From NCBI GenBank assembly GCA_013298945.1, contig JAAFJR010000002.1, positions 310,001 through 374,000 on the forward strand: 64,000 bases of DNA, read 5' to 3'. Position numbers and translations under genes: made by a program. Below, in pieces: positions 1 to 21,458 of this stretch. The notes beneath the pieces were generated by a model. That model was not told the origin of the DNA, searched no databases, and was given only the letters and a program-made list of their open reading frames with translations. The stretch's first letter is position 1. Each line of letters starts with the position of its first letter. This stretch comes from Polaromonas sp. GTDB taxonomy: Bacteria > Pseudomonadota > Gammaproteobacteria > Burkholderiales > Burkholderiaceae_C.

Positions 1-149
1 GCAATCACCACATCTTCAGCGCCCAGGCTGTTGGCTTGGGTGATTTTGCCAGCGTGTGAAGTGGCGGCTTGTTGCAATAAAGCCTTTGTTTCCGCCAACT
101 TAGCCGCAAAAGTCGCGGAGGCTCTGGCGTTTAAGTCAATCGCACTCAT
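1..149 (-). CDS. cysH: Phosphoadenylyl/adenylyl-sulfate reductase, N-terminal part (partial)
   Basis: Only the first 49 codons are in the window; the gene runs off the left edge. The peptide opens MSAIDLNARASATFAAK and reaches SLGAEDVVI, the conserved start of the nucleotide-binding fold of the PAPS/APS reductase family, which reduces activated sulfate to sulfite in cysteine synthesis. The start ATG at 147-149 overlaps the stop of the upstream DUF934 gene as ATGA, so the two are probably translationally coupled. Order cysI-DUF934-cysH is the usual one in Burkholderiales. Whether it uses APS or PAPS cannot be told, because the C-terminal cysteines are outside the window. Confidence 0.85.
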   Translation of the reverse strand, partial: MSAIDLNARASATFAAKLAETKALLQQAATSHAGKITQANSLGAEDVVI

Positions 150-17166: not shown

Positions 17167-18282
17167 ATGGCAGTTGCAATATCGAAGAATATGACTTCAG
17201 CGGCAGATTGGAGTATTGCTTATGCAGTCACGATCCGACGTTTGGACAGCCAGTTCATGCTGTGCCTGCTTCGTTTAGATACATGGCCCAACCTGAGCAA
17301 TATGCACGGTGATTTGGTTGATGCCATGAAAATGATTTGCGCTTTGTTAGAAAAGCGTCCCATGGTCGGTTTTTTGGTGGCACGTCGTTTGAAATTGCCG
17401 GTCGACAAAACTTATGCCTTGCTAAGTGTGCTTCAGACAAAAGGACATATTGTCACGGTAGGCGCTGAGCTTGTGGACGATCATTTAGCATTTAAAAATG
17501 CCAATGAAGCAGCTGACGCGGAAGATGAGTTGGCGCTTGCTGTAAAAAATGCAAATTTAGGCGCAACTGGTTCTGACGTAATAGCTAAAGACAGTGGCGA
17601 TGTGCTGAATCAACTTTGGCGAGTGCTTAATACGGATATCGCTTGGACTAAATCTGCGAATGCCAGCAAAGACCCAGATAACACAAGTGATAAAGATGCA
17701 GGCGATGTCTTGGGTCAACTGTGGCGCGTGCTGAATACAGATATTGTTCTTAAAACAGACGAAAACAACCAACCTATACCGGCGACTGAGGCCGAGCTTA
17801 AAGTACATCAAGACAAACTTGATGAAGCTGCTGGTGTGATGGGGCAGCTTTGGTCGGTGCTAAACACGGACATCGCCTTTAAGCGACAAGCTGGAACCAG
17901 CGGCAAAGAGGGTGGTGTTGAGGAGAAAACAAAAGAGGTCTCAACTGTGCTGCGTCAACTGTGGCGCGTTTTGAATACTGAAATTGCGAACAAGCGGCAA
18001 GCTAATGCTGTAAATGGGACAGTTGCCGCTACGGACACTACCATAGAAGCCAACGACAAGTTGAGCAAACTATGGCGTATTTTGGATACTGAGATCACGT
18101 TGAAGAAAAAATCTAAAACTTACGTTATGAAAGATGCTGCAGGGCACTCACCCAAGCCTGCCGGACAAGACACATCGGCAGAGGCGGTCAGCCGCTTGAA
18201 CCAACTGTGGCAAGTTTTGAACTCAGAAATCGCGGTAACTGTGCCGCCAGAGCGACGCGCTACAGCCGTCATCCACCGGTAA
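17167..18282 (+). CDS. LW-x-VLNT repeat protein with a winged-helix-like N-terminus
   Basis: A 371-residue soluble protein that I do not recognise. Residues about 48-100 read like a small winged-helix domain (DAMKMICALLEKRPMVGFLVARRL then TYALLSVLQTKGHIVTV). After an acidic linker come six copies of a 14-16-residue motif, Q-L-W-R-V-L-N-T-D/E-I, at DNA 17602, 17709, 17838, 17950, 18061 and 18196, that is every 107-135 bases. Between copies the linkers are charged, low in hydrophobics and not alike. The repeats look like short amphipathic helices, suited to binding several copies of one partner. No signal peptide or membrane segment. GTGGCTC precedes ATG 17167. Nothing near it suggests a job. 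Confidence 0.75.
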   Translation: MAVAISKNMTSAADWSIAYAVTIRRLDSQFMLCLLRLDTWPNLSNMHGDLVDAMKMICALLEKRPMVGFLVARRLKLPVDKTYALLSVLQTKGHIVTVGAELVDDHLAFKNANEAADAEDELALAVKNANLGATGSDVIAKDSGDVLNQLWRVLNTDIAWTKSANASKDPDNTSDKDAGDVLGQLWRVLNTDIVLKTDENNQPIPATEAELKVHQDKLDEAAGVMGQLWSVLNTDIAFKRQAGTSGKEGGVEEKTKEVSTVLRQLWRVLNTEIANKRQANAVNGTVAATDTTIEANDKLSKLWRILDTEITLKKKSKTYVMKDAAGHSPKPAGQDTSAEAVSRLNQLWQVLNSEIAVTVPPERRATAVIHR

Positions 18283-18291
18283 ATCCATTCA

Positions 18292-18447
18292 GTGCATTTC
18301 AGCTCACCCATAGATGCTAGATGCGCTGGTATTGAAACCGACTATCAAGATTTGGTTGACCCTAAGAATATCAGCATGTCAGACACGGTGGCGATCATGA
18401 CGGGCGCAAAACCCGTTGAAGATATTCCGCGAGAAGCCTTGGCGTAA
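18292..18447 (+). other. Possible short coding remnant after the LW-repeat gene
   Basis: In the same frame as the gene before it, after its stop, an open stretch of 51 codons from GTG 18292 reads with a plausible protein composition, including DYQDLVDPKNISMSDTVA and MTGAKPVEDIPREALA. It ends four bases before argA, which is convergent. It may be the last part of an older, longer gene cut off by the TAA at 18280, or chance. I do not recognise a family. Confidence 0.25.
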
Positions 18448-18451
18448 AAAG

Positions 18452-19928: not shown

Positions 19929-21458
19929 ATGAATACAACATCAGAAATTGGCTCAGATATTGGTTTAGTAGGCTTGGCCGTCATGGGTCAAAACTTAGCA
20001 CTGAATATCGCAGACCATGGTTACAACATCGCCGTTTTTAACCGCAACCCAGAGCGCACGACTGACTTCATCGCCCAGTGCCTAGCCAGCGAGCCCTGCG
20101 CACCACGCGTCGCTGGTTTTACCGACGTGGCAGCATTCGTGCAAAGCATCAAACGCCCGCGCAAAATCATTCTGCTCGTCAAAGCTGGCAAAGCGACGGA
20201 TGACACGATTGCAACATTGTTGCCACATTTAGAAGCGGACGATATCATCATCGACGGCGGTAACGCCTTGTGGGGTGACACCATTCGTCGTGAAAAAGAA
20301 TTAAGCGCCAAAGGCTTTGCTTTCATCGGTTCGGGTGTTTCCGGCGGTGAAACAGGCGCACGCTTTGGCCCTTCGTTGATGCCGGGCGGCTCTGCCAAAG
20401 CTTGGGCATCGTTAGAACCCATTTGGCGCGACATTGCCGCCAAGGTTGACCCTGTAACTGGCGCGCAACTAGAAGGCGCGACACCGGGTCACCCATTGGT
20501 CGGCGGCGTGCCCTGTACGGCACACATTGGACCTGATGGCGCAGGCCATTACGTCAAAATGGTGCACAACGGCATTGAGTACATCGACATGCAGCTCATA
20601 TGCGAAGCCTATGCTTTGATGAAAAACATGCTGGGCATGACGGCGGGCGAGATTGGCAAAATCTTTGAAACGTGGAATAAAGAAACGCTATCGAGCTTCC
20701 TGATCGAAATCACCGCGGACATCTTGCAGCAAAAAGACCCTGAAGACACCAGTGGACAAACCTATTTGGTCGATAAAGTGCTAGACACCGCAGGGCAAAA
20801 AGGAACGGGTATGTGGACGGCTGCGAATGCGCTAGAGCTGGGCGCGCCTGCCAATGCGATTGCCGAAGCCGTGTTTGCCCGTGCTTTGTCCGCCCTCAAA
20901 GCCGAGCGCGTCGCAGCTAGCCAAATCCTGAAAGGCCCTGAACTACCGGCAGAAAAAGACCGTGAAGCCATCATCGCCGCTATCCACGACGCCTTGTATT
21001 GCTCCAAAATCTGTGCCTACGCACAGGGCTTTCAGCTCATGAAGGAGGCGGAGAAAGAATACAAGTGGACGTTAAATTTTGCGACCATTGCCCAAATTTG
21101 GCGCGGCGGCTGCATCATCCGTGCGCGATTCCTGCAAAAAATCACCGATGCCTACAACACACAGCCGGATTTGAAGAACTTGATGCTGGACAACTATTTC
21201 ACCACTGCTCTGCACGACGCGCAAAACAACTGGCGTAAAGTCATTGGCATGGCCGTGCAACACGGAGTTGCAGTGCCCGCTTTCAGCTCAGCTTTGGCGT
21301 ATTTCGACGGCTACCGTAGCGCCAACTTACCGGCAAACTTGCTGCAGGGTCAGCGCGATTACTTTGGCGCTCACACCTATGAGCGTACCGACAAACCGCG
21401 CGGTGAATTCTTCCACCTCGATTGGCCTAAATCACCAAGATTGCAGGCTAAAGTTTAG
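19929..21458 (+). CDS. gnd: 6-phosphogluconate dehydrogenase, decarboxylating
   Basis: A 509-residue enzyme that turns 6-phosphogluconate into ribulose 5-phosphate and CO2 with NADP. The cofactor motif [20 protein letters not shown] is at residues 13-32, NRNPERT follows the second strand, and the substrate site is seen as [29 protein letters not shown] and [16 protein letters not shown] with the catalytic Lys. The C-terminal helix domain includes [15 protein letters not shown]. Slightly longer than the usual 470-residue form. Single gene on its strand, followed by dispersed element R7, whose palindrome could serve as a hairpin end. Confidence 0.96.

Follow-up and report, generated by a model that had tools for sequence, protein, structure and literature searches.

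A Polaromonas protein with a Group 3 MglA-partner domain and six conserved amphipathic-helix motifs, a candidate multivalent adaptor

The window, the 64-kb stretch of Polaromonas sp. DNA analysed here, contains next to dsbB a gene for a 371-residue protein, the first 105 residues of which look folded and are followed by six motifs of 16 residues each (Table 1). Between this gene and argA lies what remains of the ATPase gene of an ABC transporter (18292–18448, + strand), presumably of the sugar type. Its counterpart in the congener G001 is a whole three-gene operon (L028:3658–6507; the ATPase alone was Pfam-checked), and the window lineage has therefore apparently lost the operon through deletion.

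Table 1. Coordinates and sequences of the features of the 371-residue protein (positions are those of the window).
Feature	Position	Strand	Residues	Sequence	Description or basis
Whole open reading frame	17167..18282	+	371 aa, ATG start		Winged-helix-like N-terminal domain, then six amphipathic-helix motifs on polar linkers
Winged-helix-like domain	17266..17457	+	34–97		Homologous to C-terminal domain of Group 3 MglA-associated proteins
Motif 1	17602..17649	+	146–161	VLNQLWRVLNTDIAWT	Sequence comparison with G001
Motif 2	17707..17754	+	181–196	VLGQLWRVLNTDIVLK	Sequence comparison with G001
Motif 3	17836..17883	+	224–239	VMGQLWSVLNTDIAFK	Sequence comparison with G001
Motif 4	17947..17994	+	261–276	VLRQLWRVLNTEIANK	Sequence comparison with G001
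Motif 5	18058..18105	+	298–313	KLSKLWRILDTEITLK	Sequence comparison with G001
Motif 6	18193..18240	+	343–358	RLNQLWQVLNSEIAVT	Sequence comparison with G001

The 16-residue motifs follow the consensus (V)L-x-Q-LW-R-V-L-N-T-D/E-I, in which none of L, W, L and I varies among the 12 copies from the two species with an intact protein. Their LW pairs stand at residues 150, 185, 228, 265, 302 and 347, with spacings of 35, 43, 37, 37 and 45. The linkers between the 16-mers measure 19–29 residues, are mutually dissimilar and consist to 84% of polar, charged or small residues and to 14% of hydrophobic ones. Repetition of the motif is far above chance: 168 pairs of 14-mers have at least seven residues in common, against a mean of 0.9 and a maximum of 11 in 500 composition shuffles. 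The 16-mers agree pairwise at 6–12 of 16 residues yet share just 25–35 of 48 bases, and recent duplication of DNA is therefore not their origin. AlphaFold2 run on the single sequence gave models with mean pLDDT values of 40 and 54, too low to rely on, though in the first of them every one of the six LW positions lies in a predicted helix.

A full-length copy of the gene was found only in G001 among 60 relatives and 399 genomes sampled from the family. This ortholog is 76% identical, and dsbB adjoins it there too. The search of relatives found the gene absent from the congener G002, while the congener G003 keeps an 81-base fragment, located in the dsbB–argA interval and adjoining the terminal part of a DDE transposase gene. 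At this former site of the gene (L029, 9002–9347) lies the 110-residue end of a DDE_3 transposase, the reading frame of which terminates within the leftover; the leftover reads on the opposite strand. A motif profile run against the 399 sampled family genomes brought up no second protein of the six-motif type beyond the G001 ortholog, and elsewhere in the family three matches to single motifs (E 0.012–0.035) were taken as chance.

Comparison of the two intact sequences of the six-motif protein, that of the window and that of G001, separates motifs and domain from linkers. The first 105 residues are identical at 91 positions (pN 0.075) and the six motifs at 91 of 96 (pN 0.038), whereas the linkers agree at 98 of 170 (pN 0.265); pS is 0.77–0.83 across all three parts and thus near saturation. 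For three neighbouring genes, dsbB, argA and the one at 19929, the corresponding values are 0.56–0.72 for pS and 0.03–0.11 for pN. Conservation of motifs and domain at near-saturated synonymous sites shows an old gene under purifying selection, which has kept both parts. Each motif best matches its own G001 counterpart (over 14 residues, same-position pairs agree at 12–14 and cross pairs at 5–11), and the six-motif state thus predates the split of the two species. A sequence-only reading of this DNA had described an open reading frame with six conserved LW motifs on unlike linkers; the LW positions, the shuffles and the ortholog confirm that description.

The same reading called the protein unfamiliar and the motif unrecognised. 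For the motif this held: profile searches turned up no known repeat family. With the window protein as query, PHROGs returned nothing better than E 0.11 and PADLOC no match; among PDB sequences, neither the protein nor the motif profile had a match better than E 0.68. Plasmid and phage records held no match either (for the repeat-region query, plasmids alone). Pfam hits below the cut-off included DUF4871, HpaA, TrmB, Catalase_C and others. We also rejected a conservon protein of the DUF742 family, which we take to be CvnC: no DUF742 hit was listed for the whole protein or its N-terminal 138 residues, in searches with filters that drop most weak matches.

The N-terminal domain, by comparison, has relatives in a family that is known, though unnamed. 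As a single query, the window protein matches proteins in G112, G287, G233 and G407, with E values from 2.1e-6 to 2.5e-4. An HMM built from 22 relatives, with the window protein excluded, recovers it at E 1.9e-14 (one target sequence); the relatives behind this HMM, which include L078 and leave out L054, L055 (a duplicate) and L076, were originally gathered by a profile containing the window protein. When the short forms described below are excluded, an HMM from 19 relatives recovers it at E 1.2e-9 (again one target sequence), and hhalign aligns 14 relatives to it with a probability of 96.6, E 5e-10 and 40% identity over 62 columns. Among 399 genomes of the order, 47 hold a match to a seven-row domain profile at E ≤ 0.01, and at E ≤ 0.001 the profile matches in 23 of 399 family genomes; other HTH proteins account for part of these matches. 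From the 47 genomes matched order-wide, loci were taken from the best 30 places.

MglA is a Ras-like GTPase that serves as a cell-polarity switch. The homology outlined above places the N-terminal domain with the partner proteins of Group 3 MglA, and to that extent the protein is not unfamiliar. The part of the article by Wuichet and Sogaard-Andersen available to us (PMC4316618) describes the unnamed partner domain as a component of Group 3 MglA systems with a predicted winged-helix fold; its authors suggest a role in transcription control, and the partner is called a "protein of unknown function", with no function assigned. Neisseria is among the bacteria carrying Group 3 MglA, according to the available part of another paper (PMC11112851). 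HTH, TrmB, MarR and ArsR matches of the relatives are weak and below threshold (best E 0.0016 in Pfam and 0.013 in PDB sequences); the domain profile reaches 9sgv (Ap3) at 0.013 and, more weakly, others including MarR/ArsR regulators at 0.23–0.91. A winged helix is not clearly seen in the AlphaFold2 single-sequence model of the N-terminal part, which is too poor to use. The winged-helix-like start proposed from the sequence is nonetheless supported, through homology to the published fold prediction and the weak HTH-type matches of the relatives.

Most relatives are encoded next to the GTPase. An MglA-type gene lies nearby, within the fetched stretch (mostly ~1.5 kb either side), in 44 of 54 loci fetched with the domain, all from the best-scoring matches of the order-wide domain search. 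In total, 56 loci were examined besides the window and the G001 locus, 46 of the 56 having MglA before exclusions; L050 and L051 were left out because they had been fetched via their own roadblock or GTPase genes, and L027 and L055, both within the count, are one gene. The ten loci with no MglA comprise the window gene itself (L054), six (L076, L125, L126, L127, L130 and L131) that lack the WP signature and in our reading are HTH proteins of other kinds, and three orphans with a WPD/WPN signature. These orphans, L078 and L129 (218-residue frames) and L124 (a 124-residue frame), have no MglA match within ~1.5 kb, and the GTPase partner may therefore have been lost more than once.

The switch is likewise missing from our searches of the two genomes with the six-motif protein. 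Neither the 64-kb window nor the 14-kb G001 locus holds an MglA or roadblock match at E ≤ 1e-4, and a genome-wide search with one MglA query protein gave a best E of just 0.54 in the window genome (G000) and 0.47 in G001. Robl_LC7 (MglB/roadblock) has no match at E ≤ 1 in G000, G001 or G003; it exceeds the cut-off in G002, G112, G287, G233, G407 and G055. The congener G002 is positive in both searches (roadblock 3.5e-15, MglA 1.0e-37), and its MglA, roadblock and long-form partner genes stand together in one cluster. The best match to PF03029 in G000, the sole genome so searched, is below cut-off (E 4.5e-4, 21.1 bits against 27) and spans the first 36 profile positions in a 415-residue frame. 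A 133-residue protein from the G112 and G287 loci, itself with no Pfam hit, found no match in G000–G003 when used as query.

Closest in layout to the window protein are short-form winged-helix proteins, frames of 144–182 residues near MglA in related genera (G112, G287, G407, G787, G788, G790 and G324). They show the same order of winged helix, polar linker and a helix of the form hL/V-x-[RK]-LW-x-x-L, but have one basic C-terminal tail and an MglA gene nearby. In MglA-linked relatives in general, the domain is mostly followed by a variable, often Pro/Ala-rich linker, and the chain closes, at its C-terminus or close to it, with a single amphipathic helix, for instance GLLQRLMRKLLGK, NLLSRLLKKVIGL or SFLKRLWKKLLS. 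An amphipathic-helix pattern, written after the tails had been seen, fits 39 of 43 distinct MglA-linked tails and 6 of 326 background C-termini, the background being mechanically predicted reading frames of which some are surely not genes. This count started from 45 MglA-linked loci (L050 and L051 included), two of which were dropped as identical tails, and excluded the nine MglA-less loci other than L054. The four misses (L051, L122, L123 and L128) have helices that look related yet do not fit. As for the orphans, the C-terminus of L078 and L129 reads ...GGWLRRAFTRTPRGR, and the L124 frame stops five residues past the domain, without a tail.

The LW core may link these tails to the six motifs. 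It occurs at the same spacing in seven of eight short-form loci (L005, L006, L008, L110, L112, L113 and L116, not L007), with L005, L006 and L110 encoding near-identical proteins. The pattern hL-x-[RKQ]-LW-x-x-h, which was derived from motifs and tails and which the six motifs fit by construction, occurs once in 116,213 background windows from 380 other predicted proteins. Scored with a profile of all tails, whose alignment is mis-registered in at least one row (L070), five motifs reach the level of the best 0.3–1% of background windows; motif 3 scores far lower, at −11.6, and three non-motif windows of the window protein equal the motif scores. With a profile of short-form tails, four motifs score 6.5 and one 8.6, values matched or beaten by 0.04–0.12% of windows, while motif 3 scores 3.0 and one non-motif window of the same protein 8.2. 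At the 6.5 level, one background protein has four such windows, compared with six in the window protein, of which five are motifs. The tails carry a basic net charge, +1 to +4 in the eight examples selected, the motifs are close to neutral, and the NT-D/E-I end of the motifs has no clear counterpart in the tails. We consider it reasonably probable that the six motifs arose, by multiplication and loss of charge, from a single tail like that of the relatives; the resemblance is suggestive and falls short of proof. Convergence on a common amphipathic pattern, rather than descent from the tail, may also account for it, because background and non-motif windows reach motif-level profile scores. What can be added to the sequence-only reading of the motif is its likeness to the single C-terminal helix of MglA partners.

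The reading that we favour, and regard as somewhat probable, is that the protein works as a multivalent adaptor and descends from a partner protein of the short-form type in a Group 3 MglA system. The tail helix of an MglA-linked ancestor would have been multiplied sixfold and altered. Each motif may fold into a short helix upon meeting its target, with L-LW-VL-I forming the hydrophobic face and N/D-T/S-D/E-I capping the helix or contacting the target. One molecule could then hold up to six copies of one partner, and six equivalent contacts of low affinity would provide avidity or clustering, while the winged helix would bind something else, either another protein or DNA. The sequence-only reading had proposed six sites for one partner: multivalent binding is indeed the most natural reading, and a single common partner is our conjecture as it was there.

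The target of the motifs is probably not MglA, because neither the window genome nor G001 has a convincing MglA or roadblock match. Since these proteins were not found, either the ancestral tail bound a non-MglA target that the cell has kept, or re-targeting has changed what the motifs bind. As targets we think most likely a protein of the cytoplasm or the pole to which the ancestral tail already attached, or else the winged-helix domain of the protein itself. Matches to PF00437, which covers the ATPases of pilus and type II secretion machines, occur in all four congeners (G000–G003) and make such machines possible targets.

Binding to its own winged-helix domain would yield a self-assembling network, and the proposal that the motifs bind one another or that domain, as in a self-assembling scaffold or condensate former, is a serious rival, if an unlikely one. 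Six near-equivalent helices with a hydrophobic face stand within one chain, and a contact between tail and domain is conceivable in the MglA-linked relatives, where the two also share a chain; yet the single-sequence models are too poor to lend structural support, and a hetero-contact would fit the conserved polar residues equally well. We rate as rather unlikely a membrane tether, in which the winged helix would be kept on the inner membrane by six weak peripheral anchors acting jointly. The helical moments of the motifs (0.44–0.58, against a protein mean of 0.28 and a 95th percentile of 0.57) and the basic, amphipathic tails of the relatives, which resemble typical membrane-targeting helices, speak for such a tether, as do the net charges of +1, +3 and +3 that motifs 3, 4 and 5 have with their flanking residues. 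The 14-residue core of the motifs, however, has lost its basic residues (net charge −1 to +1), and the conserved polar N/D-T/S-D/E would be unneeded for anchoring. Because this polar stretch is conserved behind the hydrophobic one, it argues for a specific protein contact over a plain membrane anchor.

It is very unlikely that the gene is a decaying, non-functional leftover of a lost MglA system. The lack of MglA and roadblock matches in G000 and G001 and the mere gene fragment of G003 would suit such a history, but six intact motifs in both species and the strong conservation of motifs and domain at near-saturated synonymous sites largely refute it. The Pfam assignment to the spacer domain of MmeI-type helicases (MmeI_hel, PF20465) was rejected and has next to no probability in our view. 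Its E values are striking, 1.5e-14 with the whole window protein and 7.7e-14 with its G001 ortholog, but the score of the window protein comes from adding up three weak, repeated matches, the best stretch of which covers 34 of 75 profile positions. Taken singly, two motifs reach 17.3 and 14.1 bits (E 0.0083 and 0.086) against a family cut-off of 27, and methyltransferase and helicase families are absent from the Pfam hits of the protein.

Set beside the Group 3 MglA partner (PMC4316618), the window protein has in common a winged-helix-type domain with a WPN/WPD signature and a variable linker behind it, and the core of its amphipathic helices bears a suggestive likeness to that of the relatives' tails. 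The Group 3 partner has, in the relatives examined here, mostly one tail in place of six motifs, and also a receiver-like N-terminal region; the latter is lacking in the window protein, because the homologous domain starts at residue 34 and leaves too little upstream, and likewise in the short forms of other genera. Unlike the Group 3 partners, the window protein is accompanied by neither an MglA nor an MglB gene within the window, and its genome gave no convincing match to either. EPYC1 and CsoS2 are multivalent linker proteins that bind Rubisco or carboxysome parts. Repeated short motifs on putatively disordered linkers, the disorder here being judged from composition, liken the window protein to them in architecture, by analogy and without shown homology.

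A bolder proposal, which we hold to be possible but doubtful, is that a partner protein was freed from its Ras-like switch and rebuilt as a stand-alone multivalent organiser of a cell structure, for instance one at the cell pole or a type IV pilus. We did not find such a route, scaffold making by multiplication of a tail, described in the literature on the MglA-partner family, the available parts of which are silent on the tail, on forms with several tails and on what the domain family does. In the window variant the domain, and probably the tail, have been separated from the GTPase. The tail-like core, kept six times over, suggests which residues matter, namely L, LW, L, N/D-T/S-D/E and I, and a motif peptide is a ready bait for the target of the tail in bacteria with Group 3 MglA.

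The loci of the relatives held two further gene arrangements. In G002, two unassigned proteins of 197 residues (with no Pfam hit at E ≤ 0.001) and 205 residues flank the partner–MglA pair (L050, 2040–2633 and 4624–5241, respectively). A second kind of MglA operon is present in G287 (L024, 4727–8180) and, in similar form, in L023, L025 and L026; it encodes a short winged-helix protein, an MglA-type GTPase, a fusion of an ABC ATPase with a dual-specificity phosphatase (Pfam-checked in L024), the 133-residue protein mentioned above (identified in both L023 and L024) and a roadblock protein. An ABC–phosphatase fusion inside a Ras-like GTPase operon is unfamiliar to us.
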